In this document: positions 1,298 to 34,769 of the stretch, one piece after another
How positions within the stretch are numbered: position 1 is the first letter of the stretch
Layout: each line of letters starts with the position of its first letter
From: Lunularia cruciata
Taxonomy: Eukaryota; Streptophyta; Marchantiopsida; Lunulariales; Lunulariaceae
Direction of reading: 5' to 3'
DNA length: 64,000 nucleotides
Assembly: GCA_948567375.1 (NCBI GenBank)
Contig: OX419755.1
Span: forward strand, 55,818,291 to 55,882,290
Position numbers and translations under genes: made by a program
The notes under the pieces: model-generated
Database searches by the model: none
Seen by the model: the letters and a program-made list of their open reading frames with translations, nothing else
Told to the model about the DNA's origin: nothing

Positions 1298-1989
1298 TGT
1301 GAGCCGGCCTGTCTCTCACTCATGATAAACCTTTGATGGCTATTATAGTAGCACATCGTGGACTAAGAAGGCAAAGAACCCCAACTCCATCATACTTCTC
1401 CAAGGCTAACACTCCAAGACTCAAGACATTGCTTACTAGAGAACTCAATGAGAGAGAGATAGTTGCAAGTGAAAGGATGATGAGTACTTCCTCATCTCTT
1501 GTTTATATAATTGTGAAATAGTTACGCACAAAAGTTATTATTTACCAAAGTAACTCAAGTTACTAGACTAAAATTCAAGTAAAGTCAAAAAGTATAAAGG
1601 AATATCTATCCACATGGGCATATTCCACTAAGCATGTGATCTTATCTTGACCCAACAACTAAGTCAATGATTCCTTCACATGGGCTATCCTTGGACTATA
1701 GAAGAATCCAAAACAAAAAGGCTTACGGGTCCAAAAATTCTCAACTGTTTCCTTGAAACCAAACACCTAGGAATAATACCAAGTCAACACACTAGAATCC
1801 AAAAGAGTGGTGCTTATCTTTTCCACTTCCTCTAAAGTAATGTCCTCTCTATGTTAGATATGACTAACTTTATCTAATCATGACTAATGTAGAACCATCC
1901 TTTATCTCTATATAAATAATATCTCTAAAGTACTTGTAATACCAAGCTAAATATCACAATACCACACACATGCACAAATGAGTGTTACA
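1298..1989 (-). mobile_element. 5' LTR of A0 (family A)
   Basis: A 692-bp LTR, minus orientation, bounded by TGTGAGCC and TGTTACA on the + strand. It directly abuts the degenerate primer site, so it is the 5' LTR of A0. To its right 14 bp of family D element D2a (1990-2003) follow. The opposite LTR of A0 lies outside the window, so its TSD cannot be tested. Confidence 0.85.
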
Positions 1990-2003
1990 ACTCTAAGCCC
2001 AAA

Positions 2004-3908
2004 TGTGACAACCCAGCAAATATCACTTTTGCGGTAATCGGGTAAGTAAAGTTCGTTCCTGCAGAGATACGAGTCAGAAATGTCCAAATACAAAGCAAAG
2101 TAACAATTTTAGTTCTTCTTGAGTTCTTCTTTAGTCTCTCAGGTAGAAACCACACCCAAAAGAGAGTAACAAGCACTGACTCGCAATCTTGTCACAAATT
2201 AACACTCCATAATCACAACTTCATCAAATCTTTCCAAACAATCTTGATTGTGATGATTCAGGCTCTCCCGAAAACGGCACTTCATTGCAAAATGACTTCG
2301 CCTCAGAATTGTGTTCCACCCTTCCACTGAAGGCACAACTTCCTCGATCAAAATTGCTTCACATCAACTTCGCACTGCACTCACAAATGCAGAATACTAC
2401 CAACACTACACTTCCTCTCAGATCTGTCAAGGCATTGCTTTGATTGCACTTCACTCAGGATCAAACACACAGAATGAAGATCAAGGCTGTGGAATCCAAC
2501 ATCCAACAAGCCCTCTGACTTGCACTTCGAATTTCTTCAAACATTCACAAACACAATTACAAAGTTGATACTTGGAATCAAGCTCAAGCGATGAGCACTG
2601 CTTCACAGCACTTCGCTTTATCTATTCTTAGAAATAATGAGCACTGAACAACAATTTCTTGCGAATGCTACTCTTAAATAGTGAAGCAATCGACAATTCT
2701 AACAACTATATCGTTCTACCACAACTGTTCTAACCTGCAGATCCGAAATGACAATGCACCCTTTCATATTTGCCCCTTCAAATCTCAAATCAGTTACTAC
2801 TCCGATCCGATGTCTACTTCTTCATCGGCTTTCAACCCTGAACCCGAAGTAATCTTACTTCCTACTACATTTTCCTCGGGTTTCACAACTCCTAATTCCT
2901 CCACTAATTCTAACATTTCTCCTTCCTGATATGAAATTCCTATCATAGTTAAGCCTTCTAAATCTTTATCTCCCAACCCACTCTTCTCTAAAGTGTCAAA
3001 TGTCAAATCCGAAGACACTTGCACTCCTACCTCATCTACTTTGGGTCTAACTATTATCAATTTTTTTACTAATTCTACTATATCATCATCAAGAATTGTA
3101 ATTGAAAGCATGAATACACTATCTACACATTCAATTTGTAATCCACTTTCCCCTAATCACTCATGTTACTAACCCGAAGACACTTACTGTCTGATCCTAC
3201 ACTTCGGGTTTATTCACTACTGCTACTTCTCCTTCAATTCATGTTCCATCTTCAATTAGAACTGAAATTGAAGTCATGTGTATCCTAACTATCTTCTTTC
3301 TCTACTCTAACTTCTTCTAATCCCCTAGCAAAACTCCCCAAGTCACCTTCATTGCACTCCGAGGTCCGGCTACCTCTGATTTAGTCATCTTCATCTTGAG
3401 GCAAAGTCTTTAGACCCGAAGTCATGTAAACCCGAAGTACGAAGTACAAAATCCGAAGTCACATTGACCCGAAGACACTTTGACCCAAAGTACACTTACT
3501 CCAAAAACTTCAAATGCTTGTAACTTCTTCTACAGACCTCCAAACTTTGCGATTTTGGTGGCAATGGAAAGCCCTGAACAAGACGCTTCCAACGAGATAT
3601 AGCACGCTTGATTTGAACTTGTGGTCATTGAGATATGCCCCCCGCAAAAGTCCTGACCTGCAACTTCTATTTCTCCTTTGGGTTTGCACTCCTTAACGTC
3701 TTGTCTGAGTTTTTCCTCCTTTGACACGAAGTAAACTTCTTCAGGTCTGATCCAAACCAAACCTTTCTTTCTCTTACACAAAATTGACTTCCTCGGGTCT
3801 GATCAAAACACAAGTTTGCACTCATTTCTTCTCCATTTGGTTTCAATTTGGTTTCAGCAAGGCATTTCTTCTTCTAAACTCGTCCAAAATGAAAATGTGG
3901 GTACCACA
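2004..3908 (-). mobile_element. Solo LTR of family C, short form
   Basis: This 1905-bp unit begins TGTGACAACC and ends GGTACCACA on the + strand and is flanked by a perfect 5-bp TSD, CCAAA (1999-2003 and 3909-3913), inside D2a. Its left 757 bp match the ends of all other C LTRs. It then carries about 105 codons of the C-terminus of the LTR-encoded coiled-coil frame (2797-3111, minus strand) and the LTR's 5' terminal part. Most of the frame is missing compared with the 3.8-kb form. The copy at 4049-15692 has the same short structure. Confidence 0.82.
2797..3111 (-). pseudogene. C-terminal remnant of the family C LTR-encoded ORF
   Basis: A 104-codon minus-strand frame, acidic and rich in Leu, Val and Glu. 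It corresponds to the last part of the 877-codon ORF at 27040-29670: both contain similar 'LEKSGxGDKxLxxL' and 'LVEELxVVKPExxVVGSKI' stretches. The N-terminal domain and most of the coiled coil are deleted. It is a remnant, not a gene. Confidence 0.65.
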
Positions 3909-4846
3909 CCAAACATACTCCAATTGGTGTGAACCTTAAATGGTCATCCTCTAATCAGTCTAGTCAAATTAGGAGCAAATGTAAACCTCTCCTTGAGCTC
4001 TACAAAAGCTCTCTCTAGCTCATCTCCCCAACACCACTCTTGTGTAAATATGACAACTCGGAAAATATCACTTTTGCGGTAATCAGGTAAGTAAAGTTTG
4101 ACCTCGTAGAGATGCAATTCAGAATTGGTCAAATACAAAGTCAAAACAATAACAAGTAGTTCTTCTTGGTTACGTCTTTAATCTCTCAAGTAGAAATCAC
4201 ACCCAGAAGAGAGGAACAAGCATTGACTCACAATCTCGTCACAACAATTTGTCACACTTAATCACAACTTCATCAAATCTTTCCAAATAATCTTGATTGT
4301 GATGATTCAATTTCTCTTGAAAATGACACTTCATTGCAAAACAACTTTGCCTCAGAATTGTGTTCCACCTCTCCACTGAAGGCACAACTTCCTTAGTCAA
4401 AATTGCTTCATATCAACACTACGCTACACTCACAAATGTAAAATACTACCAACACTACAATTCCTCTCAGATCTGTCAAGGCATTGCTCTGATTGCACTT
4501 CATTCAAGATCAAACACACAAAATAAAGATCAAGGTTGTGGAATCTAACATCCAACAAACACATTGATTTGCACTTCAAAATTCTCCACACACTCACAAA
4601 CATAAACACAATGTTGATACTCAGAATCAAGCTTAAGTGACGAGCACTACTTCATATCACTTCACTTTATCTATTCTCAAAAATTATGAGCACTAAACAA
4701 CATATGACTGTGAATGCCACCTTTAAATAGTGAAGTACTTGACAATTACTAACTAATACACCATTCTATAACAGCTTTCCTAACCTGTAGATCCAAAATG
4801 ACAATGCATTCCTTCATATCTACCTCTTCAAATCTCCAAATTGATT

Positions 4847-5104
4847 CTAATCCGATCGGATGTCAATCTCTTCATTGGCTTCCAATCCCGATGTTCTTCC
4901 TATTACTTCTCCTTCTTGGGGTATATCTGATTCTACCAAATCCTTCACTATGTCTACTACTTCTTCACTATGAATTACATTTAAACTAGTGGGTAATCTA
5001 TCTAACTCTTTATCTCCTAACCCACTCTTCTCTAATACCTTAGATAACTGATCCAAAGACACCTGCACTCCTCCTCCTCTTACTTCGGATCTAACTACTA
5101 TCAA
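4847..5104 (-). pseudogene. C-terminal remnant of the family C LTR ORF (interrupted by D1)
   Basis: An 85-codon minus-strand remnant related to 2797-3111 ('LEKSGLGDKELDRLPT' is shared with the ORF at 27040). It is cut on its upstream side by the insertion of D1 at 5118. No intact product is possible. Confidence 0.55.
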
Positions 5105-5118
5105 TTCCTTTGCTAATT

Positions 5119-5566
5119 TGTCGCGCCATTTGTAGTGTCACATCTAGATGCTTGGACACTAGAGTTCTAGTGATAGTAGTTAGAGTTATTTTAGTAGTTT
5201 CTCAAAGACTACTTTTCGACGTCAAATTTTGTGTTTGGGGTACTGACTTTACGGTGGGTCCCACAATCACTTTGTACCATTTTCACAATCGAGTGTGCCA
5301 TCAGCGGGACCGTTAGAGTTCAGAACTAGCTCAAGTCTAGGGGGTATACTTTTGAAGTGCAGCTCCAAAGAGCTCACTTCTCTGATGTTGAGCCTTCGAG
5401 TTCTTGGCTATGGTGGACAGAGGCCGACGAGAGTCACTTGGATTCTCTATGTTGGAGTGGGTGTGGCTTGACTGTAATTAGTGCCCAGTTGTTGGTAGTT
5501 TATAGAGTGACAGATCAAGTATTGATCTGAGTTGAGTTGAGTTGAGAGTGGTAAACAATCTGATTA
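5119..5566 (+). repeat. 5' LTR of D1 (lacks its 3' 105 bp)
   Basis: It matches the 3' LTR from TGTCGCGCC through '...gtggtaaacaatctgatta'. The 3' LTR then continues with a 105-bp tail that is absent here. The next bases, 'catcagagaag', could be the remainder of a tRNA-Met type primer site (TGGTATCAGAG) after a deletion removed the LTR tail and the first bases of the site. That reading is an inference. Confidence 0.75.
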
Positions 5567-6600
5567 CATCAGAGAAGTCAAGTTAGGGGGAAATTGGATG
5601 CAAGAACTTTGAGTGTTGATGGATCGTTGGTAGCTCAATTCAAGTTCAATTTTCCCTCGTGTACAAAATCTTGTTCAACTGATGCAAATTAAGCAGTAAG
5701 GCAGACAATGTACGGAAGTGCTGGCTAATTTTGAGCACAAAAGGAGCAAATTTCAAGCAATGGTTGTGATTTTGAGCTCAAGAGGTGAAAGCATGACCAA
5801 TTTGTTGCGAGTTGGGCTCAGAAAGTAAAATTGAAGGTGGATTTGGGAAGCTATTATCATGAATTTGTGATTTGGAGAAACCTATGTTTTCAACTTGGCT
5901 TGAGTAAAGAGTTAGCGGGGGATTTGGCGGTTAGCCAACTTTAGGGTTTATGTCAGATTTTGGCTAGATTTTACGTTAGATTTTGGCTTTGAGGCATACG
6001 GCTTTGGGCTATGAGAGGCTACAAAGGCCTAGAAGGGCTAGCAAGCTAGCTTGCGGGCATGAGGCTAGCTAATTTAGAGTAGATCTTGGTCATTGGTTGG
6101 CAAAATCTGCCTTTCTTGAGATCGTGCACAATAGGGTTTGACCCCTAGATCTCTTGTTCCTAGACTGGTGCCCTAGCTAATTGGTCCACCCTCACTTGTT
6201 GTCCTAGTGACTATGCCATTGTTATTTATACACTTGTAGCTTTGGCTAAGAGAGGCAGTTTGATTCCATTCTTGGTGATCCTGGTAGCTTAGGGCTTAGA
6301 TACGAACTTCTCTTATGTCAAATGCCAAATGGTGGTAGAGTCAATCCCGTGTTGTTTTATGAGATGGAGTGTTTTTGTTTAGATTTCTTGTGATTAGACC
6401 CCCTCCATTCTTTGCTTCTTGTTTGTGCACCACGTTTGTGTGAGGTGCCTTGACTTTTGAGCATTGGTGCTCTGGTGTGCTCTTGGTAGTGAGGCTAGAG
6501 TGATGACCAATTAGACTACCTTTGTTTCTTTCCGATAAAGCAGGAAGTGATGACCTGTAGATTGTGAGAGTGCGTGTTATGATGGCAGGTTACATGTTGC
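5567..6600 (+). other. D1 5' leader, no gene seen
   Basis: About 1 kb between the 5' LTR and the first gag-like frame. It contains no long open frame on either strand. GC and base usage resemble the rest of D1. Treated as untranslated leader. Confidence 0.5.
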
Positions 6601-8200
6601 CCTTTCCCCTAGTGTTGTTATCTCAGTTAGAGTTACATTAGTGGGTGGTGTTCCGTGGGTGTTGGCACTTGGTGGTGTGGGTGCTTGTTGTTGCAATTTG
6701 TGGTGTGGTTGCAATTTGTGGTTCCGGTTTGCGGTTGCAATTGTGGTTACTTTGTCACAACGGAGTTTGTTGGAGATTCTAGAGGAGATAGCCCTACAAT
6801 ACACAGTGGGTTTACTCAGAGTGGTACTCAATATCAGCCTGTATCTTAGGTCCCAGTGAGGGAAGAGATTGACTTTGAGTTGGAGTTTGACACAAGAACT
6901 GATTCAGTTGAGAGTGCACTTGGTGTGTCCACTGTTATTGTGGGACATGGACAAGATTTATGGGGCCTCCAGAGGCCCTAAGCGTTACTCTGGTATAGTG
7001 GATACCATTGCATTGGCTGACTTCATCCAAGAGTTTGATAGTTGGTGTGATCTGTAGTAGATGTGGAACCCAACTTTGTTTACACCTTTCATGGCATAGA
7101 AGGGGTTGTTTCAGCATCTGGAAGGTCCACTGATGGATGACTACCATGAGTTTAGGAGAGCTCATTTGGAGGAGATTGAGTTATGGAGATAGTATTGGTC
7201 TCCAAACTATATCTCCATCACTTCAAGCTCGATGGCCAGGAGTAGATTGGATGTACTTACGAGTTCTAGCTCAAGTAGTGTTAGTGGAGCTAGTGGAGGT
7301 GCAGTAGTTGGAGATAGTGCTACTACAAGTGGATGTACCACTACAAGAGGTGGTGTGGTATTAGGGTTTAATCCCATGGTGGAGTTCTTCTAGTGTTTGA
7401 GGCAAAACTACCAAGGAGTACGGACTGACAAGCTAAGGAGCTTGCAAGCGTTCCAATGGATGGCTAGAGAGAGCCTACACGAGGCATACACTCGCATGAG
7501 GTGGCTGATCAGTTTCACTCAAGGAGTTACTGAGGCCCAAGTAGTCCAGTTTTGGTATGGGATACTAGACAGGGAGTTGCAATGTAGAGTTTGTGATGCT
7601 ACGTTGTTACAAGCTACTTTGCATACTTTGGCAGTGGTCTTTGGTTTGGCTGAGTGTATTGAGCTCAACATGGTGGAGGAGAGAGTGGTGACATTTGGAT
7701 TTGGTAGAGAGACCTCATCCACAACTGTGACTTCTTCTAGAGTGCAACAGAGTGCACCACGCTTAGTTGGTTTTTGAGGACAAGGTGGATAGCCTAGATC
7801 CTATAGAGCAAGTGGAGGGCCTAGTGGAGTTAGACCCTTACCTTCATTTTTGGGTCAACAGCAGCCAGTGAGTGGTGGTGTTGCTTGTTGGACTTGTGGT
7901 GGACTTCACCATTGGAGAGAGTGTACTCAGGGCAGTGGACCTGATACCTTGGGTGCATCATAGCCAACACAGAGGCAGTGTGAGCATTGCCATAGATTTG
8001 GTCACACTAGTGACCGGTGTTTTGACCTACACCCGGAGTTACGGAGTGGTAGGGCTGCTATGGTAGGTAGTAGAGGAGCTCCAATTCATCAAGGACGAGG
8101 TAGTAGAGGTGGTGGTAGAGGATCTACACCTAGTAGGAGTGCAGTACCTGCCCTTACTTTTGATACAACTATGGCTACTTGGATTGAGCAGTTGGAGTAG
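6600..8200 (+). pseudogene. Gag of D1 with two CCHC zinc knuckles
   Basis: Gag would form the particle that packages element RNA. The readable frame includes an acidic N-terminal part (about 6850-6960), a gag-like helical domain ('ADFIQEFDSWCDL' near 7017; 'HEFRRAHLEEIELW' near 7147; 7397-7720), then a Gly/Ser/Arg-rich tail. Two C-x2-C-x4-H-x4-C knuckles are intact: CWTCGGLHHWREC near 7887 and CEHCHRFGHTSDRC near 7980. Several TAG/TGA stops (for example after 'SWCDL' and before 'KGLFQHLEG') and one indel near 6960 disable it. The start codon is uncertain. Confidence 0.75.
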
Positions 8201-8203
8201 AGA

Positions 8204-8890
8204 TTGGCTAGTATGGCTATTGCTCAGCGGAGATCAGATTTGGGTGCTAAGGCTTCCACCTCATATGTTGGTGACAAAGATGCTTTGGACTTCATGTGCG
8301 GAGCAGCACAGGTGGATGCATCTACAACAGTGACTAAGAGTGCAATACGTGCTCCAGAGCCTAGAGGAGCATCAGTGGAGTTAGACCCACAAAGAGGAGA
8401 GGTTGGGAGACAGGTCAGACTTCCCCAGTCTTTCACACTATATGAGGCATTGCAAATAACATCCATGGTTCCTAGACGTCCCAGTGTAGGTGTGGTAGGT
8501 GGTGATGGAGTGCATGATGGACTACCTACTAGTCAGCCACCTACTACTACACAAAATGAGTCTAGCATGATGTTGGGGGCGGCTCAGCTGATTATGAGAC
8601 GTCCTTTGTTTTTGGCCAGTGATATGTTTACATTGGGAGTTGACCTATCCCTAGTGTTCCGGTTGGCTGCCATGCTTTGTGAGAGTAGGGATGATGGGGT
8701 TCCTACTACTAGAGCAAAGGTGGTTGGTAGTGGAGCTGACTTGGTTGAGGAGCATGGGATCCGTTCAACGACCAGTGGTTTATAGCAGGCAGTAGTGGCT
8801 AGATTGGAGGAGTTGCCAGCTAGACTGGCCTTTGAGAGAGCATGGTTTACCCCTTAAGTTGTCCTATTGGATAACTAGAGGAGGATTTTC
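8204..8890 (+). pseudogene. D1 gag-protease linker region
   Basis: This continues the gag frame for about 190 codons without a stop up to 8783, then with stops. It holds no domain I recognise. It is rich in Ser, Thr, Pro and Arg and lies between the zinc knuckles and the protease, where gypsy polyproteins often have a variable spacer. Confidence 0.5.
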
Positions 8891-9300
8891 CGTCTGGTAG
8901 GACCTTCAAGGAAGGTCTATACACCACAAAGAGTCTTGTTAGACTTTGGTGCATAGCCCCTTATGTTGGGGAAGGCTGCAGTTGTTGGTCTAGAGTTACG
9001 AAAGACTAATGTGGAGAGGTGTCCATTTTAGATCCAAACATCTCTAGGTGGTGGTTTGACACAATACATCACACTTGGGGAGCTTGTTGTCCAAGTTCAG
9101 CATGGTCACTTTACTGATAGCTTGGTGGTGAGAGCTCAGGCTATTGCGACAATAGCTGAGTTATATGATGTGCTAGTTGGAGGAACATTGTTATACCCCA
9201 TGGGTTTTAGTATTGACTATTGGGAGGAGACAACTTCCTATAGACCAGGTTGGCAGTCTGGTGAGGGACGAGTTTGTCGCCTACCAATACGCTTTAGTAG
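8891..9300 (+). pseudogene. Retroviral-type aspartic protease of D1
   Basis: The protease would cut the Gag-Pol polyprotein. The catalytic motif appears at about 8937 as 'LLDFGA' followed by a TAG and 'PLMLGKA' (family form D-S/T-G-A; here D-F-G-A). Downstream, 'LGELVVQVQHGHF' and the hydrophobic 'YDVLVGGTLLY' (about 9157-9195) fit the flap and the conserved ILG-D-x-L region of gypsy proteases. The frame is the same as the preceding gag segment. The stop in the active-site loop inactivates it. Confidence 0.65.
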
Positions 9301-9651
9301 TGGTAGTCTTGGCTCACTACAGTCGGGGACCATGGCAACATCAGTTTTAGCTTCAATGGTGCAGTTACTTGGCTTGGTGACTTGTTGGAGAGGAACACCC
9401 ATGCAAAAGATACTCCAGTACCAAAGGAGATCACTTAGATTTGGAGTACAAGTGAGATTGTTCCATCCACCTTGGATGTTCCATTGTGGAGTTCAGAGGA
9501 GGCATTGCAGCAGCATGTAGATTGGTTGGTGCAATAGGCTTGGAGGGGAGCCTTCGTACCATCAAAGGATGAGTGTGAGGATGAGCCTCCAGAGTTGATT
9601 GCTTTGACACCTCTAGATACCACACTCATTGCTTGGCAGTATCCGGTAGAG
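9301..9651 (+). pseudogene. D1 protease-methyltransferase linker
   Basis: About 115 codons joining the protease to the methyltransferase. The reading frame shifts here (protease in frame 2, methyltransferase in frame 1). From about 9430 the methyltransferase frame is readable, with acidic stretches such as 'PSKDECEDEPPELIALTPLD', and continues straight into motif I. No separate domain is recognised. Confidence 0.5.
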
Positions 9652-10608
9652 GGGATATGTCTATTGGAGTTGTTTGGTGGGATTAGCACCGGACTAGCTG
9701 TGGTTTTATAGGTGAGTATACAAGTACAGAGGTACTTGCATGTAGAGAGAGATGAGATTGCTAGGCGAGTCTCTCTACATCATATGGCACACTTGGCCTA
9801 TTGGTATCCGGAGTTATTACCAATGTCAGTAGTCAGAGGTTACCAAAAGGCCCTACCAGTAGACATTTCCTTATTGGGGGTGCATGACCTAGAGAGACAT
9901 GGGCCTATTCACTTGGTGATTTTTGGATAGCCATGTTAGGGACATACACATGCGGGCTGTGGTTTGGGTCTTCAAGATCCTTGTTTTGGTGTGTTTTGGG
10001 AGATGTTATGGATACTACAACATCTCCAGGTTCATCAATCCATTTCTCTAGCTTACTTTTTAGGGAATGTGCCTTTGATGGGTGATTCTTGCACTAGAGT
10101 GGTGGTAAGTACACATCATGTCCATTCTTGGATGAGACCTGCTATATTATTAGATGCAGCTAGAGTGGGATCATGGGCTCATTGTCTTTGTCTTTGGTGG
10201 ATGAACCTCTTACCTAGAGAGGTTCTACATTGTGCTTATGATGGGATTCATCAACTTAGACCACATCCTTGTTGATGATATCTTGGGCGTCAGTCACAGA
10301 TAGTGGTAGTGGCTGAGAGGTCACCTATGGCAATGGTGAACCTAGTTGGACAGCCTAGAGCCGCATTTCCCACACTCATGAGTTTCCCAGGCTCTCATGC
10401 TTTTTGAGAGGGAGGACCTGGACTTGTTTGGGACTCATAGTTACAACAATTGGTGGAGCCCAATGTTGATGAGAGAGAGCGGGTGATGGGTTTTCACACC
10501 GGTATTACCACTATTCCAATAGTGTCAGAGGCATCTAGGTGTCAAGTGTTAGGTCAAGCTATAGATCTGAACTGTTTGACCTGGATTGTGAGCCTTGGCT
10601 TGGCACAG
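9652..10608 (+). pseudogene. DNMT3-like C5-cytosine DNA methyltransferase domain inside the D1 polyprotein
   Basis: The family transfers a methyl group from S-adenosylmethionine to cytosine C5 in DNA. One frame of 319 codons shows the motifs in canonical (not DRM-rearranged) order. Motif I is LFGGISTGL at 9670-9696, followed by GIQVQRY as in DNMT3 proteins. Motif IV has catalytic Pro-Cys at 9931-9936 after 'HGPIHLVIFG'. Motif VI is GNVPLMGDS at 10063. Motif VIII is AHCLCLWWMNL (DNMT3: AHRxRxFWGNL). Motif IX is ERERVMGFHTG, and motif X ends 'LTWIVSLGL'. Length fits a DNMT3 catalytic domain (about 280 aa). This copy is dead: eight in-frame stops (five TAG, three TGA, no TAA), and ENV has become GNV. 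The module lies between protease and RT and has no own start, so it was expressed as part of Gag-Pol. Confidence 0.9.
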
Positions 10609-10960
10609 TAGCGTAGGATGCGCTTGATAGGCATCACCACTTGGACACTTGTGAGCCCTGTACCAATCAAGATGATTTAAGCACATGTTGGGAGCAATGG
10701 ACCGAGTGGACATGGTATTCTTGGGACACAACCAATAGCTACTAGGGAGAGTGGTCTACTTGGAGTCCATCCAGGTGAGCGTGGGCTACTTGGAGTACAT
10801 CCTTGGTCCACTTAGGATGCAGCTAGAGGACATGTGGAGCTTGCAGCCAGAGTGGAGGGAGTTTTTCACATAGAGGTTGGGACCTCTAGTGGTCGGGACC
10901 TCTAGTGGTCGGAGGCATGACACTATTGCTCCCAAGGGCCCAGTGTAGCAGCCAGTTAGT
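10609..10960 (+). pseudogene. D1 methyltransferase-RT linker
   Basis: About 117 codons between methyltransferase motif X and the RT N-terminus, with several stops and no recognised domain. It holds a 17-bp direct duplication at about 10878-10911 ('gggacctctagtggtcg' twice). D2a (33300-33931, minus) has the homologous linker, and its last 30 bp still match the end of methyltransferase motif X, which ties the methyltransferase to the family rather than to D1 alone. Confidence 0.55.
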
Positions 10961-11815
10961 ATGTCTTTTACTCCTACTACAGTTATAGAGGATACTTGGG
11001 AGCCAAATCTTGGACTCAAGCTTACTAGAGAGGAAAGACGGAGGGTTTGGAGGTTCTTGAGGAGCCATGCAAGTTGTTTTGCCTTCAATATGAAGGATTT
11101 GGGTGCTCTGAAGGGACATGGTATACAGATTGAGCTGACTAGCAATACACCAATTTTCCAACGTCCTTATTGCTATAGTGACATGGAGAGAACATTGATT
11201 TAGAGCCGGAGTAGTGACCTTTTTGAGGTTGGTTTGGTGGAGATTTCACATGGAGATTATGCATTAGCAACAATGATGCCAACCAAGAAGGATATGCATG
11301 GCAACTAGACAAATAGGTGGATGTGTGGAGATTACCGTCCTATCAACCGACAGACCAGGGCTGATCGGTATGCCATGCCTACACCAGAGGAGATTTTTGA
11401 TGCAATTGGGCATGCAAATGTCTTCAATACTTTGGATCTTTGAGCGGGATATCATCAATTGCCAATCAAGGAGGAGGGTAAGTCCACGACAACATTCTGG
11501 GCTATTGATCCTCACGGCAAGGATGTGTTATATCAGTGGAGGTTCTTACCGTTTGGGTTAAAGAATGCTCTTGCCGAGTTCTGGAGGGTCATGGATAGGA
11601 TCCTAGCTGGATTGGATTTTGCTCGGTGTTATATTGATGACATTTTGGTCTATAGCACTCATGTGGAGGAGCATGAGAGACAATTGTTGGAGGTGTTTGA
11701 GAGGTTGAGGTCTCATGGACTCAATTACATCCTGGGAAGTGTAGCTTCTTCCATGAGTAGGTTGAGTATTTGGGTCACACTATCTACCCCGGAGGACTTG
11801 GTGTTCAGTAGACCA
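10961..11815 (+). pseudogene. Reverse transcriptase of D1
   Basis: It would copy element RNA into cDNA. The readable features are the N-terminal 'LTREERRRVWRFLRSH', 'GDYRPINRQTRADRYAMPTPEE' with the conserved Pro-Thr, 'FNTLDL-AGYHQLPI' (a TGA replaces one codon), 'FLPFGLKNA' and the catalytic YIDDILVYS (YIDD at 11630-11641), followed by 'THVEEHERQLLEVFERLRSHGL'. These are the usual seven RT blocks of Ty3/gypsy. Stops at 11202, 11308 and 11442 and a frame change near 11800 break it. D2a holds a partial second copy on the other strand (33087-33296). Confidence 0.88.
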
Positions 11816-12480
11816 AGGTGGAGGCTATTGCATGTATTCCTTGGCCTACGGATGTGAGTAGAGTGCGAGCATTCCTTGGGTTGGTGAACTTCTATCGCCG
11901 CTATGTTAGAAGATTTAGTGCCATTGCCAGTGCCTTGACAAAGTTGACCAAGCTTACACATGAGTGGTGTTGGGAAGATGAGCAGGAGAGAGCTTTCGTA
12001 GAGCTCAAGGAGAGGTTGATATCTGCTCCTATTTTGAGGAGACCAATCAAAGGATGACCATTTCAAGTTCATACTGATTGGAGTATGTTGGGGCTTGGAT
12101 CGGAGCTCACCTAGCATCATGATGAGGGGAAGGAGTTTGTGGTGGCCTATGCTAGTTGCTCCAACAATTCAGTGAAGTTGAAGTATAGTTCATATGAGGA
12201 AGAGTGCTTGGCAGCAGTTTGGGCAATAATACATTTTTGATGTTACCTATTTTGGTAACCTCTTCACTCTCATCATTGATCATCAACCACTAAAGTGGTT
12301 GATAGAGTCGGACGAGCTTTCAAGGAAGCTTGCATGATGGGCTTTGATTTTACAAGAGTATGATTTTATGGTTGTTACAAACTTGGAGTGGTGAACCGTG
12401 ATGCAGATGAGTTGAGTAGAAACCCATGTCCCAGCCAGCAAGATCAGACCAGAGCATGTTAGCATGGTGAGATAGATGAG
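11816..12480 (+). pseudogene. RT connection and RNase H of D1
   Basis: The segment opens with 'VEAIACIPWPTDVSRVRAFLGLVNFYRRYVRRFSAIA' at about 11818 (conserved thumb/connection), then 'WCWEDEQERAFVELKERL', 'VVAYASCSNNS' and 'LIIDHQPLKWLIE', the usual RNase H landmarks of gypsy elements. RNase H would remove the RNA strand of the hybrid. Several stops (12054, 12111, 12238) interrupt it. Matching pieces occur in D2a (3909-4048) and D2b (48225-48797). Confidence 0.8.
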
Positions 12481-12796
12481 GAGATAGTGCCAAGTTGGCA
12501 TGCATTTGCCTTTTTATGTATATTTTCTGAGGCTTTGGTGGTATCTCTCTCAGCCTATACAGGAGGAGTTATTGAGGTCACAGATCTAGAGAGTGAAGAT
12601 ATTGGTACTGTTCAGCGAGACATTCATGATGATGTCTTAATGATGGACTATCTTTGCACTGGTGTTGTGGGTGACACAATTGGGGCCAAGGAGAGAGACC
12701 ATGTTCTTCAGCAAGCCCAATGGTTCAGATTGGAGGGTAGACACCTTTTGCGTGTATGGGAGCATGGTAGAGTGCGAGTAGTACTACTTCCATCTT
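12481..12796 (+). pseudogene. D1 RNase H-integrase spacer
   Basis: A 103-codon open stretch (12487-12796) in the same frame as the integrase. It covers the end of the RNase H region and leads into the integrase zinc domain ('QQAQWFRLEGRHLLRVWEHG' is the customary pre-integrase block). No extra domain is seen. Confidence 0.55.
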
Positions 12797-13890
12797 AGAG
12801 ACCACAGTTGGTCCGTAATGCTCATGAGGAGCTAGGACATTTTGGAGTAAAGCATACATATAGCTTACTCTAGAGTCATTATTGGTGGCACGGTATGTAG
12901 ACCAAGGTACAACAGTTTTTTGCCAAATGTGTGGTTTGTGACCAAGTTAGAGCATCATTCAATGCTCCTATGCCATAGTTACACCCATTACATATCATGG
13001 GATTGGGTTACTATTGGAGTTTTGACTTTGCTGGACCTTTACCACTGACTGTGAGACATCATTGGTATGTTTTGGTGATGGTAGAGCACTTCTCCAAGTG
13101 GATTGAGTTGGTGGCACTTCTTGACAAGTCTAGTGAAGGGACAACTTACTCGTTCCTAGATCAAGTTCTTAGTCATTTTGGTGCACCAGCTGAGGTTTTG
13201 ACTGATCAGGGTATAGAGTTCTTGGGGGAGTTTCAGGTCTTGTGTGATAAGGCTTTGATTGATCATTGTACTACATCCCGAGATCACCATGAGGTAGATG
13301 GCTTAGCAGAGAGAGTGGTTCAGACGATGAAGAGAGGATTGCAAAAGTATGGTTTGCAGAGAGGCCACTTGGGAGATTGGGATCTCCAGTTACCTTGGTT
13401 GGCCATGGGCTATTGGTTCAGCCGGCAAGCCTCCTTAGCATCCTTCTCTCTATACTTTCTACTCTATCGACAAGACCCAAATTTGCTTGCAGCCATTCAT
13501 TGAGATGCTACTGTAGTTTTGGACTTGGATGACCCTGATGTATGGATGATTGCATGTTCTCAACGGGCAAAGATCTTTTGGAGAGTGATGCTGATGGCCT
13601 TTGAGAACTTGGCGATTGCTCAGCATAGAGATACTTTATGTCATGCTACCACTCGAGGAAGAGGTTATAGACCCTTGATCCAATGATTTCATCTAAGAGA
13701 CTATGTATATCTATAGTAGACAACACCGATGACACTTGATGTTTTGACATGCCGCACTATCTTGAGAGTGCGTGAGGTTTTGCCATCTGGAGTCCTTGTC
13801 TTAGAAGGACGTGATGGTGTTGTTTGGAAGATCATGTGCGCCATGCTACCTCCCAAACATTGATGGTTCTATGGATCCAAGCTTGGCACT
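12797..13890 (+). pseudogene. Integrase of D1 (HHCC and DDE core)
   Basis: It would insert the cDNA into host DNA. The HHCC finger is readable as 'NAHEELGHFGVKHTY' and 'CVVCDQVRA'. The catalytic core has 'SFDFAGPLPLT' (first Asp, about 13021), 'LTDQGIEFLGEF' (second Asp, about 13202) and the Glu in 'HHEVDGLAERVV'. The C-terminal part contains 'LRVREVLPSGVLVLEGRDGVVWK', typical of the SH3-like GPY/F region. The stretch 12997-13500 is open for 168 codons; stops and a frame change near 13830 spoil the rest. D2b has a homologous copy at 34911-36100. Confidence 0.85.
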
Positions 13891-13900
13891 TGTACATGCA

Positions 13901-14047
13901 GGCTTGAGGTGTATGTTATGTGGCTCTTCTGGTGGAACTACTACTATGTTAGTGTGTGATAGCTATTTGAGAGGATGGCATATGGCATGTATGACTCCTC
14001 CCCTCATGGTGGTTCCTCAAGGACAATAGTTATGTCCTAGCTATACT
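13901..14047 (+). pseudogene. PHD-type zinc finger at the C-terminus of the D1 integrase
   Basis: PHD fingers are C4-H-C3 zinc modules that usually read histone H3 tails. The pattern here is Cys 13910, Cys 13919, Cys 13955, Tyr 13964 (Cys expected), His 13979 in 'RGWH', Cys 13988, then 'MTPPLMVVPQG', a TAG where Trp is usual, Cys 14033 and Tyr 14042 (Cys expected). Spacings match the PHD family, including the conserved G-W-H-x2-C and P-P-L-x2-V-P-x-G. D2b (34770-34910) keeps Cys at both positions that D1 has as Tyr, and loses a different one. The finger follows the integrase in the same polyprotein, where chromoviruses carry a chromodomain. Confidence 0.82.
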
Positions 14048-14219
14048 TGACCTAGAGCTAGTTCATTTTTTATATAGTATAGATTGAAGACAGACAACTA
14101 ATGATAGGGCTCCATAGCACCTGGCCTCCTAATCTTTGCCCATTATAGAGTATACCATATACTTAGAGTAGATGGTTATCTAGAGTTAGAGGGACCTAAC
14201 CGCCAGCTAGGGGGCCAAT
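14048..14219 (+). other. D1 3' untranslated region with purine-rich tract
   Basis: A short noncoding stretch after the PHD finger. It ends in 'agctagggggccaat' (D2b: 'ctaggaggaaat' in element orientation), a plausible polypurine tract. In both copies the tract sits just before a 107-bp extra copy of the LTR tail rather than directly before the LTR. Confidence 0.45.
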
Positions 14220-14326
14220 TGTGGCACTTTAGAGTCAATATATGACTTATGTGTGAGTTGCGCTTCTATAATGTATGATGTTGACAATGATGTATGTTGT
14301 GTAGTGATGTATATATGCACAACAAC
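14220..14326 (+). repeat. Extra 107-bp copy of the D LTR tail
   Basis: The segment TGTGGCACTTTAGAG...CACAACAA repeats the last 105 bp of the LTR (14778-14882). The same extra copy, also 107 bp, precedes the LTR of D2b (34488-34594), so it is a family trait and not a local duplication in D1. Confidence 0.75.
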
Positions 14327-14882
14327 TGTCACGCCATTTGTAGTGTCGCATCTAGATGCTCAGACATTGGAGTTCTAGTGATAGTAGTTAGAGTTATTTC
14401 AATAGTTTCTCAGAGACTACTTTTTGATGGTCAGATTTTGTGTTTGGGGTACTGACTTCACGGTAGAGCCCACTGTCACTTTGCACTGTTTGCACCGTCA
14501 AGTGTGCCATCAGCGGGACTGTTAGGGTTCATACCTAGCTCAAGTCCAAGGGGTATACTTCTAAAGTGCAGCTCCAGAGAGCTCACTTCTCTGATGTTGA
14601 GCCTTTGAGTTCCTGGCTATGGTGGATAGAGGCCGGCGAGCGTCACCTGGATTCTCTATGATGGAGTGGGTGTGACTTGAATGTAATCAGTGCCCAATTG
14701 TTGGCATTTTAAAGAGTGACGGATCAAGTACTGATCTGAGTTGAGTTGAGTTGAGAGTGGTAAACAATTTGATTAATTATGACACTTTAGAGTCTATGTA
14801 TGACTTATGTGTGAGTTGTGCTTCTATAGTGTATGATGTTGATAATGATGTATGTTGTGTAACGATGTATATGTGCATAACA
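14327..14882 (+). repeat. 3' LTR of D1
   Basis: A 556-bp LTR, TGTCACGCC...CATAACA. Its right end meets the resumed C LTR at AATTC, giving the TSD partner. D2b has an LTR of the same 556-bp length (33932-34487), which supports these limits. Confidence 0.8.
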
Positions 14883-15934
14883 AATTCTACTATATCTTCA
14901 TCAAGAATTGTAATTGAAAGCATGGGTACACTATCTACGCCTTCAATTTGTAACCCACTTTTCCTTAATTGCTCATGTAACTAACCCAAAGACACTTACT
15001 GTCTGATCTTACACTTTAGGTTCCTTCACTACTACTATTTCTCTTCTAATTTTGTCCTATCTTCAATCAGTCCAAAATTAAAATCATGGGTATCCTAAAT
15101 ATCTTCTTTCCCTACTCTAACTTCCTCTAATCCCTCTAGCAAGACTCCCAAAGTCACCTTCACTACACTCTGAGGTCCAACTGCCTCAAGTTGAATCATA
15201 TTTGTCTTGAGGCAAAGTCCTTAGACCCAAAGTCATGTAAACCCAAAGTCCAAAATCCAAAGTCCAAAGTTCAAAGTCCCAAAGACACCAACCCGAAGGA
15301 CCTCAACCCGAAGTCCTTCAACTACTTTGTACATCTACTCATGGAACTTCAAATGCTTCTAACTTCTTCTACAAACCTCCAAACTCTACAATTTTGATAG
15401 CAATGGAAAACCTTGAACAAGACAATTCCAACAAAATATGGCATGTATGATTTGGACGTGTTGTTATTGAGATACATCCCCCGTAGTAATCCTGACCTGC
15501 AACCTTCCATTCCTCCTTCGGGTCTGCACTCTTTTGGGTCTGATCCAATCCAAGCCCATCTTCTTCTAACACAAAGTTGACTTCCTTGAGAGCTTGATCA
15601 AAACACACGTTTCTCTTGGTTTCTTCTCCATTTGGTTTCAGCAAGACACTTCTTCTTTAAAACTCATCCAAAATGAAAATTTTGGTACCATAGTAAGCTT
15701 GGTTAGCTTTATCAAGGACTTGGCACTAAATCCTCTAACATGGCGGTGATAGAAGTTTACCATCCCAAGGAATGCTTGCACTATACTCACATCCATAGGC
15801 TAAGGAATACATGCAATAGCCTCCACCTTGGTTTGCTGAACATCAAGTCCTCTAGGGTAGATAGTGTGACCTAAATACTCAACTTGCTTGTGGAAGAACC
15901 CACACTTTCTAGGATGTAATTTGAGTTCATGAGA

Positions 15935-20885: not shown

Positions 20886-21372
20886 CTAGGGAAAGACTGC
20901 CCTTTGCTCCGGGTCTAGCCACTCAAGACAATGACACATATGCAGATAGTGATATTTGGCCGCATACCTTGTACTTTGAACAACCATTAGATGATATAGC
21001 TCTTCATCAGAAAACCGATCATCAACTTCCAAGTCTTGGTCTTGAGTTTCTAACCTGGATAGAAGTCTGCATTTGAATGCAAAGCTCCTTTCCTTACTTG
21101 TACAATGTATGTGAATTCTTGTAACAACAAGATCCATCTTGCAATTTGCTTGAACAAATCTGCATAATGGTCAACATAGAAGACAACTTGTATCCCAACA
21201 AGTAGTGGCAAAATTTCTTGCAAGCATACACCATTCTGAGTGCTTCTTGTACAGTCATTGAATAGTTCTTTTCTGAGAGTGATAATTGTTAGTTGGCATA
21301 ATCAACCGAATAGTCCTTCTTCTTCTTGTCCTTTTGAATTAAGACAACTCAATTGCCATGGACAAAGTGTCA
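20886..21372 (-). pseudogene. RNase H region of element C
   Basis: Decayed RNase H and pre-integrase sequence ('MDLVVTRIHIHCTSKERSFAFKC' and 'DRFSDEELYHLMVVQS' are readable at 21137-20886). On its upstream side it is cut by the solo A LTR at 21373-21996, which inserted just after the 'FHVYVD' block of RNase H. Confidence 0.55.
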
Positions 21373-21996
21373 TGTAACACCCATTTGTGCATGTGTGTGG
21401 TATTGTGATATTTAGCTTGTTATTACAAGTACTTAAGAGATATTATTTATATAAAGATAAAGGATGGTTCTATATTAGTCATGGTTAGCTAAAGTTAGTC
21501 ATAGCTAAGATAGAAGGGACCTTACTTTAGAGGAAGTAGAAAAGATGAGCACCACTATTTTGGATTTTAGTGTGTTGACTTGGTATTATTCCTAGGTGTT
21601 TGGCTTTGAGGAAAGAGTTGAGAACTCTTGGGCCCGCAAGCCTTTTTGTTTTGGATTCTTCTTTAGTCCAAGGATAGCCCATGTGAAGGAATCCTTGACT
21701 TAGTGGTTGGGTCAAGATAAGACCACATGCTTAGGGGAATATGCCCATGTGAATAGATATTCTTTTCTACTTTTTGACTTTACTTGACTTTTAGTCTAGT
21801 GAGGAGGTACTTATCATCCTTTCATTTACAACTATCTCTCTCTCATTGAGTTCTCTAGTGAGCAATGTCTTGAGTCTTGGAGTGTTAGCCTTGGAGGAGT
21901 ATGATGGAGTTGGGGTTCCTTGCCTTCTTAGTCCATGGTGCGCTACCATAATAGCCATAAGAGGTTTATCTTGAGTGAGAGACAAGCCGGCTCACA
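21373..21996 (+). mobile_element. Solo LTR, family A, with promoter-region deletion
   Basis: A + oriented family A LTR inserted in element C. It is 624 bp rather than about 690. The missing stretch is the part between 'tagtctagt' and 'gaggaggtact', which in other copies contains 'tatataaac', so the probable TATA box is gone. The flanks TGTCA and GTCCA are similar but not identical; a TSD is possible but unproven. Confidence 0.82.
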
Positions 21997-23427
21997 GTCC
22001 ACATACACATGAAAAGGGACGTCCCAATTTGGAGCCCTCATAATTGGTGCTTCAACCAGTTTCTGCTTCAATACTCGGAAAGCATCTTCTTTGGCGGCTT
22101 CCCACAAGTAGTCTTTGGACTTCTTTAGCAGCTTTGTAAGGGGTGCAGCAAGCACCGCATAGTTTGACATGAAGTGTCTAAAATATCTGACATGTCCTAA
22201 GAAGGCTCTCAGCTCTTGGATATTCTTCAGGGATTCCAAAGTTGAGATTACTTTAACCTTCTTCACATCAACTTCAATCCCTTGGCTTGAAATCCAATGC
22301 CCCAAGAGAATTCTCTCCTTCATTGCAAAGAAGCAGTTCTCTTGGTGTAATGACAAACCGGCAAAATGACACCTTTCAAAAGTTTGGCAAAGGTAATCCA
22401 AATGTACATCTCTTTGCCCAAACACACAAAAATCATCAATGAAGACAACCACAAATTTGTGCAAAAAATCCTTGAAGATTGCATTCATCATCCGTTAGAA
22501 AGTAGCGGGAGCATAACACAACCCAAAGGTCATCTGATTTTAAGCAAAAGTGCTCCAATAGGTGGTGAATGTAGTTTAATCCTTGTCCTCTTTTTGGATG
22601 GATACTTGATTGTACCCTAAAAATCCATCAAGAAAATTGTAACAAGGGTGACCAACTACTTGGTCCAAAATCATATCAGTAAAAGGCAAAGGATGATGAT
22701 CCTTCCTTGTCACTGTGTTCAACTTGCAAAAATCATGGCACACTCGAATCTTTCCAGTCTTCTTCTTCAAAATGATGACAATGGGGGAAACCCACTTACT
22801 GCTCAAGATAGGAAAGATTATTTGGGTCCCTAAGTACTTGTCAATTTTTTCTTTCACCAAGAGGGAGTACTTTAGGTTCAGGCGGTATTGTCTTTGCCGA
22901 ACCGGAACTGCACCTTCAACCAGATCAATCCGGTGTTCTCCAAATTCTTGTGGAATGCCTGGCATTTGATTAATAGACTAGGCAAATACATCTTGGAATT
23001 CTATAAACATGGCAATGTATCCTGCCAACTCCTCCGGAGTGACTGTCTTTGAAATCTTCAAAATTTTTCCTTCAATCAAGACAACATCTTGATAGTCATC
23101 GGGGTTGATGACACCTTTAACATGGCTTACTTGGCTCAATCCAACACGTATTGCAGTCAAACCCCCTTCTTCCAAGTCGTGTTCACCCAAGGCAATGTTG
23201 TATGGGTCTTTGTCTTTGACCTCTACCTCATAGCATTCCAAATAATTTACTTGGACTTTGTCTCCGGAGTCTTCGAATGACAAAGACAAAGAATCTTTGG
23301 ATTCATCTTTGTCTTCCAATGAAGTAGTTTCCCCAAGGTGAGGAACCTTTGTCCAACTCATGGTCACCAGCTTCTGATCTTTGGACAAAATGTCCTTAAA
23401 CCTTAACTTTTGCTGGTGCCAATCCAC
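21997..23427 (-). pseudogene. Reverse transcriptase of element C
   Basis: Minus-strand RT in pieces. The upstream part (23427-22978) is acidic linker. Then follow 'KEKIDKYLGTQIIFPILSSKWVSPIVIILKKKTGKIRVCHDFCKLN' blocks (22870-22720) and 'NFLDGFLGYNQVSIQKEDKD' (22640-22576). After a break comes the catalytic 'FVVVFIDDFCVFG' (FIDD near 22431-22445), then 'ELRAFLGHVRYFRHFMSNYA' and 'APIMRAPNWDVPFHVYVD', where the A LTR interrupts. The RT type, with F-I-D-D, is like that of family A and unlike D1's Y-I-D-D. Confidence 0.82.
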
Positions 23428-30207: not shown

Positions 30208-32876
30208 TGTGACAACTTGGAAAATATCACATTTGTGGTAATTGGGTTAGTAAATTTTGTTCCCACAGAGATACGAATCAGAATTGGTCAAATACTAAAT
30301 CAAACAGTAACATGTAGTTCTTCTTGATGTTCTCTTTAATCTCTTAGGTAGAAACTACACCCAGAAGAGAGTAACAAGCTCACAATCTTGACAACTTGTC
30401 ATGCATTCACACTCCTTAATCACAACATAGCAAATTCTGTCCAAATAATTCTTGATTGTGATGATTTAGATTCTCCTGAAGACGGCACTTCACTGTGAAA
30501 ACAACTTTGCCTTAGAATTGTGTTCCACCCCTCCATTGAAGGCACAACTTCCTTGATAAGAATTGCTTCACATCAACTTCACGCTGCACTCAGAAATGCA
30601 GAATACTACCAACACTACAATTCCTCTCAGATCTATCAAGGCATTGCTCCAATTGCACTTCACTCAGGATCACACACACAGAATGAAGATCAAGGCTACG
30701 GAATCCAACATTCAACAAACACATTGACTTGCACTTCAAATTTCTCCCACACACTCACAAACATAAACACAAAGTTCATACTCAGAATTAAGCTCAAGTG
30801 ACAAGCACTGAAATCAACATTTCACTTTATCTATCTTCAGAAATATGAATTCTGAACAACATAACACTGCAAATACCACTCTTAAATAGTGAAGTAAATG
30901 ATAGTTCTAACAAAAATACCGATCTACAACAACTCTCCTAACATGCAGATCCAAACTGACAATGCAACCCTTCATATCTGCCCCTTCAAATCTCAAATCT
31001 GTTTCTACCCCAATCCAATGTCTACCTTGTCATCAGCTTTCACCCGATGATCTTCCTATCACTTCTCCTTCTTCTGGTATGTCTGATTCTACCAAATCCT
31101 TCACTATTTCTACTATCTCTTCACTAAAATCTACAATTGAGGTCATGGGTAATCCATCTACTTCTTTATCTTTTGACCCACTCTTCTCTAATGTGTCAAA
31201 TAACAAGTCAGAAGACACCTGAATTCCTACTTCTGCAACATTGAACTTCCTCTCCTCTATCACACTACTCCTGATTCTCTCTAACTCTGACTTGACTAAA
31301 TCTACTATGAGACTGACATCGTCTCCTACTTCTAACATCTTCCGATCTACTTGCTCCCTTAATCAGATCAATAAAGTGTTCATATCCACATCTTTGGCTT
31401 TCCTCTTTCGAGTTTCGTGCACAAGCAACTTTAACTTGTGTAGACGTGCTTCTTCTAATCTCCCTTCAGCCTCTATACTCAAGATTGCTTGCAACTTTCT
31501 TGCAACTTCTCCTACTGATTTTGACTCATAACCTTGAGATTGCTCTACCTTCAACTCTTCGCGGTACATCTTCAACTCATCTTTGTACTCAACAGCGAGC
31601 ATCTTCTTCTCCTCCGCATTCTGTGAACTCTATAACTCAACACTTTGTACCAGCTTGTGCAATCTTTCTTCTTCTCAATACCTGACTGCCAACTCTCTAT
31701 GCCATGTTTGATCCTTCTTGACTGCACTCTTCCTCAAGCTTTCTAACTCCTGCTCCATTATTGTAGCCATTGCCTTCACATGAATACTTTCAATACGCAC
31801 ATCACTGACCTCCTCTTTCATCTTGGTCAGCAACATTGCCTGCTCTTTCAATTCTTTGGCTTGCTTCTGTAGTTCCTTACCTCTTGACTCAAAAATTTCT
31901 TGCAACTTCTCAAAAGTCTTCTTCTTCAAGACTACATCCACCCAAAGTTCTTCAACTTCCTTGTCTCTTGGGACTACACGCTCCTGCAAACCCTTCACTT
32001 CAACCAGCAAATACTTCACCACCTGCAACTCATTTTTTGCCTTCATACAATCTTGGGGAATTACCTTCTGGTGCTCCTTCAACAGTTCCAACAATGGAAT
32101 GACAACCTTTGATAGATACTATATTCTGCCAAAGTTCTCTTCGTCTTTTGACCCATCTTTGTACTTTGCCTCTTCCATCGGCTCCTTCTGCCAAAGTCAC
32201 AATCTTTGTATCTTTAGAGACGCTGCTTCCGAGCTTCTTTCTTCCTTACCTACTGAATCGGCCCCGCATGGTACTCCTTCTGTCTTTCAGTCCCCTTCTC
32301 TTCCACAACCAGGGCTACGCAATGATTTGTCTTTCCTGGTACACTATCAATCATCGCATGACAAGCTTCACCCACTCCAACTGATTGCTGAACCTCATGT
32401 TCCCCCTCACTCTCACTTCTAGATTCCTCACTTTGTAAAGTGAGTTCGTCTTCTTCTGAGTCCTCTCCTCAAGACTCTGTCTCCCCTTCAAACTTGGTTT
32501 CCAATGATGCTTCTTTCACCATCTTCTTACTCTGTAGAACCAGTCTTTGGGCCTTCCTTTGTGCTGGAGGTGACTTTGCATCTTTGGGTTTACTTGCTTC
32601 TTCTTCTTCAAGCTTGAGACTTCTTCTATCTTTCATTGTCCTGTCCTCAAGAAGTGATCATCATTGTCTTGCAAGTGTGCCATATATTGTTGCTCTTCTT
32701 CATCCGCTTTGTGTCTCAAATTAGGATGGAAATGTAACATCATGCAACGCCTCTCCTTTGCTGTCAGCAAGTTCAACCTAAAGTAGAAGGGTGCTGCAAA
32801 CGGTGCAAAATAATGTGGAGGCAAAATTGTCTTCCAATTGACTACCATCCACCTTGTTTGTTGGTGAAAACACTTC
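30208..32876 (-). repeat. 5' LTR of element C, truncated
   Basis: Starts TGTGACAAC next to the primer site and parallels 15935-18600 of the 3' LTR. It stops abruptly at about 32876 in the middle of the LTR ORF, where D2a resumes. About 1.1 kb of the LTR's outer end is missing. Confidence 0.8.
31033..32876 (-). pseudogene. LTR ORF copy in the truncated 5' LTR of C
   Basis: C-terminal two thirds of the LTR-encoded protein. It closely follows the 16736-18600 copy (for example 'KKTFEKLQEIFESRGKELQKQ' against 'KKTFKKLQESFESRGKELQKQ'). Coiled-coil heptads run from 32094 to 31033. Part of the globular domain, 'PPHYFAPFAAPFYFRLNLL', is visible near 32830. The N-terminus was lost in the truncation at 32876. 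Several stops and frame changes. Confidence 0.68.
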
Positions 32877-33931
32877 CATAATAGTGCTATAGACCAAAAT
32901 GTCATCAATATAGCATAGAGAAAAATCCAATCCTGCTAGGATCCTATTTATGACACTCTAGAACTTGATAGGAGCATACTTTAACCCAAATGGTTAGAAC
33001 CTTCACTTATATAATACATCCTTAACGTGAGGATTGATAACCCAAAATGCTATCTTGGATAATCCTCCTCCTTGATTGGCAATTGCTCAAAGATCCAAAG
33101 TATTGAAGATCTTTGCATGCCCAATCGCATCAAAGTTCTCCTCTAGTGTAGACATGGCATACCAATCAGCCCTAGTCTGTCGGTTGATAGGATGGTAATC
33201 TCCACACATCTGCCTATTTGTGTAGCTGCCATGCATATCTTTCTTGGTTGGCATCACTGTACTTGATGCATATTCCCCATGTGAAATCTCCACCAAACCA
33301 GCCTCAGAAAGGACTCTACTCCGGCTTTAAATCAATGCTCTCTTTATGTACTATATCGATAAGGACATAAAGAAACTAGAGTATTGTTAGTCAGCTCAAT
33401 CCAAATATGAGTTCCTTTTAGAGCACCCATATCCATCATACTTAAGGCAAAACAACTCATGTAGCTCCTCAAGAACCTCCAAACTCTCCATCTTTCTCCT
33501 CATGTATGCTTGGGTCCAAGATTTTACTCCCAAGTTTCCTCTATAATTGTCATAAGAGTGGAAGACATACTAATTGGCTGTTACATTGGGCTTTTGGAGA
33601 GCATTAGTGTCATGCTTCCAACTACTAAAGGTCTCAACCTCAGTGTGAAAAACTTCATGCAATTTGGTTGTAAGCTCCATACGTCCTCTACCTACACCCC
33701 AAGTAGACCAAGGGTGTAATCTAAGTAGACCATGCTCACCTGGATGGACTCCAAGTCAACCACTCTCCCTAGTAGCCATTGGTTGTGTCCCAATAATACC
33801 TTGTCTACTTGGTCCATTACCCCTAGCATGTGCCTGAATCATCTTGATAGACATAAAGCTCACAAGTATCCAAGTGGTGATGCCTATTAGGCACATCCTA
33901 CACTACTCTGCCAAGCTAAGGCTCACAATCT
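32877..33931 (-). pseudogene. D2a reverse transcriptase N-terminal part and linker
   Basis: Minus-strand family D pol corresponding to D1 10575-11665. It includes 'MVEISHGEYASSTVMPTKKDM', 'CGDYHPINRQTRADWYAM' and 'IFNTLDL' (33296-33087). Upstream is the linker. The final 30 bp (33902-33931) match the last codons of the D1 methyltransferase. The catalytic part of that domain would lie beyond the D2b insertion and is not in the window. Confidence 0.75.
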
Positions 33932-34594: not shown

Positions 34595-34769
34595 ATTTCC
34601 TCCTAGCTAGCAATTAGGTTCCTCTAACTCCATATAGCCATCTACTCCAAGTTTATGGTATACCCTATGATGCACAAAGATGAAGAGGCTGGGTGCTATC
34701 AAGCCTCATTGTTAGTTGCATGTCTGCAATCTATACCATATAAAGGATGAACTAGCTATAGGTCAAGTA

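Follow-up and report, generated by a model that had tools for sequence, protein, structure and literature searches.

In a 64,000-nucleotide stretch of the Lunularia cruciata genome (assembly GCA_948567375.1, contig OX419755.1, positions 55,818,291 to 55,882,290, forward strand; hereafter the window), positions 5119-14882 are occupied by a Ty3/gypsy retrotransposon that carries a C5-cytosine methyltransferase (MTase) domain of the DNMT3 type (Table 1). The element belongs to an abundant family and is an old copy, decayed through methylation. As the initial annotation, made from the letters alone, had described, the MTase domain lies between protease (PR; LLDFGA near 8936) and reverse transcriptase (RT), with LFGGISTGL, Pro-Cys, NVPLMGDS and a DNMT3-like motif VIII in collinear order. 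The open frame of 319 codons reported there is contradicted by seven in-frame stops, and its GIQVQRY motif reads SIQVQRY in this copy. Five of the stops replace codons that in the younger copy L010 read CAG (three), TGG and CGA, each by a C>T or G>A change; the remaining two (10273, 10276) stem from a local frame shift.

Table 1. Features of the MTase-bearing element and of a second family fragment in the window.
Feature	Coordinates	Strand	Basis or remark
Target-site duplication AATT (left)	5115-5118	.	identical to 14883-14886
Repeat A1, left terminus, starts TGTC	5119-5566	+	repeat comparison with A2
Decayed open reading frame 1 (ORF1): Gag, protease, MTase; frames broken	6660-10945	+	start approximate, by eye against L010 ORF1 1624-5907
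Two CCHC knuckles in Gag of decayed ORF1	near 7886	+	reading frames
Protease in decayed ORF1	near 8936	+	LLDFGA
DNMT3-type C5-cytosine MTase domain	9652-10608	+	7 in-frame stops
TAG CAG CCA, conserved ORF1 stop in readthrough context of the tobacco mosaic virus (TMV) type (UAG CAR YYA)	10946-10954	+	
Decayed ORF2: RT, RNase H, integrase	10949-13500	+	rve 6.3e-12 in 12982-13500
Decayed PHD finger after integrase, some zinc ligands lost	13907-14047	+	read from frames
Repeat B1	14217-14325	+	repeat comparison
Repeat A2	14327-14775	+	repeat comparison
Repeat B2, right terminus	14775-14882	+	ends AACA here, GACA in young copies
Target-site duplication AATT (right)	14883-14886	.	
Rearranged second family fragment	32875-36398	-	RNase H to B2, then piece from MTase end to RT

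A chance run of motifs can be rejected, the window domain having 61 protein matches at E <= 1 with a best value of 9.9e-125, far beyond chance. A Pfam scan of the window copy itself returned no family at E <= 10 because the copy is decayed; PF00145, the expected family, is matched by L010 (5.2e-7) and by the homologues P0001 (6.2e-11) and P0004 (1.1e-7). By sequence and by fold, the nearest solved structures to the family MTase are DNMT3A and DNMT3B, at 19-26% identity in structure alignments whose rows (VIA-align) do not cover every MTase family and thereby exclude none. The family profile (68-381) aligns collinearly to DNMT3A (6w89), with motifs I to X in order, in support of the DNMT3-type assignment and the collinear motifs first proposed. 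A rearranged enzyme of the DRM type was rejected, given this collinear alignment and a DRM2 match that covers one part only. In contrast to DNMT3A and DNMT3B, the PHD finger here stands on the integrase side, and no ADD or PWWP domain was detected by Pfam in L010 ORF1 or the scanned part of its ORF2.

The family is abundant in the host genome (565,766,749 bases, 74 contigs searched; all copy-number figures are lower bounds). The window MTase query gave at least 125 scored matches, window included, the others being 80-83% identical to it; the P0001 query gave at least 111 (from 13,361 first-look candidates); and a pattern around the ORF1 stop had at least 747 exact matches, with none for the reversed control. 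Other copies therefore do carry the domain, and its position in the polyprotein is fixed across family copies, as initially supposed, yet the second window fragment has B1-A2-B2 in its 3' end and no MTase body (its ORF1 stop site reads TAA CAG CCA). Among the window pieces found, the domain is confined to the 9652-10608 copy, as it would be had a single copy captured a host gene fragment once; with at least 125 scored matches and homologues in other genera, a one-off insertion is rejected and such a capture is scarcely credible.

Approximately every fifth of the 111 matches was taken as a sample of young copies (n=20, 10 kb each). In L010, ORF1 (1428 codons from stop to stop) contains Gag, protease and MTase and ends 107 codons downstream of the MTase; ORF2, in the same frame, contains RT, RNase H (RH), integrase (IN) and a PHD finger, with one extra stop within RT. 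The order RT-RNase H-IN with an rve integrase is that of Ty3/gypsy. The Gag assignment is a putative one based on position and zinc knuckles, the Gag model matching L010 weakly (0.054, below the cut-off). The PHD finger matches PF00628 (5.2e-11), and its best match among solved structures is CHD4 (E 6.2e-17). Chromodomain Gypsy elements (chromoviruses) have a histone-reader type domain after the integrase; here a PHD finger replaces the chromodomain, and the MTase and split repeats are additional.

The sequence TAG CAG CCA forms the ORF1 stop in 19 of 20 sampled copies and in the window copy, L013 lacking the region. This stop is in frame with ORF2, and its context fits the UAG CAR YYA rule; according to PMC2754532, CAR YYA is required and the TMV site is read through at 32%. 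From its context, the conserved UAG is probably leaky. Given that the MTase lies upstream of a probably leaky stop, it is predicted to be made together with Gag-PR at Gag levels, and RT and IN should be the minor product under readthrough. The original suggestion that the enzyme was packaged with RT and integrase needs to be changed accordingly, the MTase being placed on the Gag-PR side.

The terminal repeats are equally unusual. B1/B2 pairs are found in 18 of the 20 sampled stretches and A1/A2 pairs in 16, with A1 at the left, B1 before A2, and A2-B2 at the right, a layout other than an identical long terminal repeat at both ends. A1 and A2 are 95.4-99.5% identical in the 16 copies where both were read (A1 being clipped by the stretch edge in most of these), against 397 matches and 51 mismatches in the window copy (Kimura two-parameter distance 0.126). 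The outer ends read TGTC...GACA; of the 17 copies inspected, among them the one in the window, 16 have the same 4 bp duplicated on either side, and in L017 three of the four positions match. A B1-A2 junction can be read in 18 of 20 stretches, 13 of which have the exact palindrome GACAGCTGTC, and a purine-rich tract lies upstream of B1 in the four copies inspected. DIRS elements are defined by a tyrosine recombinase and the lack of a target duplication; with an rve integrase and identical duplications in 16 of 17 copies, that identity was rejected.

Split repeats together with target duplications suggest integration from a circle. Conventional reverse transcription would yield [B-GC-A]-coding-[B-GC-A], and end joining followed by the opening of one B-GC-A palindrome, with loss of GC, would give exactly A-coding-B-GC-A-B. 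The form that integrates would then be a circle holding two [B-GC-A] units, which integrase would cut open at the palindrome. Two individual copies deserve mention: downstream of A1, the 5' part of L011 contains a partial extra B-GC-A junction (1226-1359), which circle formation or template switching may have left behind, and in L020 A1 is followed, after position 458, by CATCAGAG, which is no canonical tRNA primer site and only partly resembles an initiator-tRNA site.

Relatives were taken from the matches listed for the window domain and from two further searches, as the best 120 of 270 and the best 120 of 130 matches. Those named among the matches listed are Calypogeia, Marchantia, Riccia and Sphagnum, together with the green algae Haematococcus lacustris and a record labelled Chrzof1, presumably Chromochloris zofingiensis. 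Many of the matches listed are environmental sequences, and two (P0079, P0232) bear bacterial metagenome labels and may be misbinned. Neither a vascular plant nor Klebsormidium nitens is named among the window-domain matches listed and these best 120 of 270 and best 120 of 130. A search of viral contigs found no relatives in a collection from which records near the host genome may be left out. The vascular-plant setting implied in the initial annotation is not supported: the copies group with Calypogeia and Marchantia elements, and the named matches among those listed are bryophytes, green algae and the two metagenome labels.

Two domain orders recur among the 257 collected proteins: 56 are of type II (RT-RH-MTase-IN-PHD) and 39 are type I ORF1 proteins (PR-MTase), while 116 have the MTase alone and 46 have other or partial combinations. 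In an RT tree (6 type I rows and the 19 of 56 type II rows with long RT, rooted on four RT stretches from window Gypsy elements, two of them overlapping), all MTase-bearing rows form one group (support 100), as do the type II rows (100); type I needs two changes and hence no single group is shown for it there. In an MTase tree (29 type I, 30 of 89 type II and 4 unassigned rows, the Sphagnum rows being too short to include), a single branch (99) separates the two types, and the host copies group with Calypogeia and Marchantia elements; its outgroup is one very long, distant DNMT3A row, without cellular green DNMT3. The trees fit joint descent with one change of MTase position. With so few outgroups, separate captures from related sources could also account for them.

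Selection was gauged from variants shared by two or more of 19 copies (L013 dropped). The ratio of nonsynonymous to synonymous variants (N/S) in the MTase is 0.16 for shared variants and 0.55 for singletons, and in RT 0.10 and 0.74 (Fisher p 0.008 and 0.0002, post hoc). In the linker after the MTase, shared variants give 1.06 (3 N : 1 S), and in RNase H those other than C>T and G>A number 4 N : 1 S. The count is biased against change in the MTase because copies were picked by MTase similarity. Independently of it, MTase identity to four Marchantia proteins is 70-74%, that of RT 68% over 273 aa (P0144) and 81% over 72 aa (P0145), and that of the linker 26-31% in three. These patterns indicate that the MTase domain is under purifying selection, in agreement with long-term retention. 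Across the sampled type I and type II rows, the catalytic Cys is present in 58 of 59 (the other being a gap), the motif VI Glu-Asn in 59 of 59, and the two motif VIII Arg in 57 and 59 of 59. Within type I, motif IV has Pro in 26 of 29 rows and Cys in 28, and motif VI has Glu-Asn in all 29. In 24 of 30 type II rows (e.g. P0109, P0111, P0118, P0141), motif IV reads Glu-Cys in place of Pro-Cys, the Cys being retained.

The copies also bear marks of host silencing. Four young copies agree at 7622 sites; the window copy differs from them at 610 of these (92.0% identity), and 441 of the differences are C>T or G>A, falling on 134 of 409 CG, 184 of 780 CHG and 123 of 2682 CHH sites. Observed/expected CpG is 0.24 in the window copy, 0.45-0.47 in the four young copies and 0.24 in the rest of the window. 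Singleton C>T changes in 16 of the 20 young copies (L013, L016, L025 and L027 dropped) affect 73 of 293 CG, 143 of 547 CHG and 202 of 1981 CHH sites. CG together with CHG is the pattern typical of silencing in plants; since both decay, host silencing of the element is probable regardless of its MTase. Any self-marking does not spare the copies from it, and tolerance of that silencing through the element's own methylation, an early proposal, is disfavoured by this decay.

Elsewhere in the window, Gypsy elements with open RT-RNase H frames lie at 56661-58931 and 40222-41178 (both minus strand), neither of which gave an MTase match in the window search. The window further contains some ten copies of a repeat about 690 bp long, in both orientations and at about 88-98% identity (448-1134, 1298-1989, 21372-21997, 38120-38813, 41461-42154, 45929-46619, 49864-50535, 55050-55739, 60076-60766 and 61041-61736); these are perhaps terminal repeats of another element family.

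DNMT3 enzymes in retrotransposons have been published before, including one in a Gypsy element of Klebsormidium (de Mendoza et al. 2018, PMC5890265), and DNMT3 in streptophyte and dinoflagellate retrotransposons is mentioned again in the later PMC12344493. The charophyte precedent to which the initial annotation alluded is KnitGypsy-Dnmt3 of K. nitens. Like the present family, it has a DNMT3-type domain in a Gypsy polyprotein, DIRS-like A-coding-B-A-B repeats by the published description, and an MTase domain under purifying selection; it was described as an acquisition of the K. nitens lineage (PMC5890265). The terms 'PHD' and 'readthrough' have 0 occurrences in the main text of that paper, figures and supplements aside. 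SymbioDIRS-Dnmt3 and SymbioLINE-Dnmt of Symbiodinium are likewise retrotransposon-borne cytosine MTases, and the SymbioDIRS enzymes produced CG methylation in yeast (PMC5890265), but these are tyrosine-recombinase elements or long interspersed nuclear elements and not Gypsy elements with a DDE integrase. In the open-licence literature searched, supplements aside, nothing on this family was recognised beyond the 2018 paper and those citing it. Four features were not found there: the TMV-type stop context (UAG CAG CCA) that separates Gag-PR-MTase from RT-RNaseH-IN, a PHD finger downstream of the integrase, 4-bp target duplications around DIRS-like split repeats (the repeat layout itself being published), and liverwort, Sphagnum and chlorophyte relatives in two domain orders.

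We consider it slightly more probable than not that this is an abundant Gypsy family of the form Gag-PR-MTase / UAG / RT-RH-IN-PHD whose MTase marks the element's own cDNA before or at integration. This account starts from what was observed, namely the anatomy, a lower-bound copy number, the signs of selection and conservation in other genera; its further steps are conditional. The MTase would be made at Gag levels and enter the particle, where it would methylate the double-stranded cDNA no later than integration and probably at CG, such that a new copy would enter chromatin already marked; the PHD finger might read a histone tail and steer integration. The element's own cDNA, methylated at CG, is the most likely substrate. 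Several points weigh against this account. C is lost at CG and CHG in the young copies and the window copy alike; shared integrase variants number 10 N : 3 S (1.02), and constraint is thus not seen in every block; the sampled copies were selected by MTase similarity, which biases the MTase counts; no canonical tRNA primer site was seen by eye after A1, leaving the replication scheme incomplete; and in the relatives P0163, P0167, P0171 and P0055 the MTase runs into RT without a stop. Further, no methylation was obtained when the KnitGypsy MTase was tried in yeast, a result its authors call inconclusive (PMC5890265).

The stop between MTase and RT could be a plain terminator, with RT-IN derived from a spliced or internally started transcript. 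Several Marchantia gene models do fuse MTase and RT, for which splicing or annotation may be responsible, but the stop shares its frame with ORF2 and lies in the UAG CAR YYA context, and we regard a plain terminator as unlikely. Action on host chromatin or other mobile DNA, for example to silence competitors or to keep the element's own spread in check, seems more doubtful. Gag-level expression would supply much enzyme, PMC5890265 discusses a slowing of retrotransposition, and PMC6338049 proposes that accessory domains of polyproteins serve in defence; retention in the polyprotein would nonetheless be explained more directly by a cis role in the particle, and nothing points to trans targets, at which no test was aimed. 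A purely structural or nucleic-acid-binding role within Gag, with catalysis unused, has still less to recommend it: the Gag-side position of the MTase and the frequent Glu-Cys of type II would suit it, but the near-invariant catalytic Cys, motif VI Glu-Asn and motif VIII Arg argue against it. Returning to self-marking of the cDNA, a broader picture may be offered tentatively, with somewhat less than even confidence. One ancient Gypsy clade extending across the green lineage would combine a DNMT3-type writer with a PHD reader after the integrase; in its land-plant branch a leaky stop would place the writer at Gag levels, the integrase would insert a circle cut at an internal palindrome, and the Klebsormidium case would be a member and not an independent capture.

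DNA methylation is usually directed against transposons, and here a widespread family carries and conserves a methylation enzyme of its own. Elements of this kind were known already; the breadth of the family, the Gag-side MTase, the PHD finger and the duplications around split repeats are additions, and a phenomenon previously described from few algae is now wider. Three separate predictions open to checking follow, about particle content, targeting and integration; they come from the stop context, the PHD finger and the unusual terminal repeats. With copies in Marchantia and other bryophytes, the question of why elements mark themselves becomes testable.
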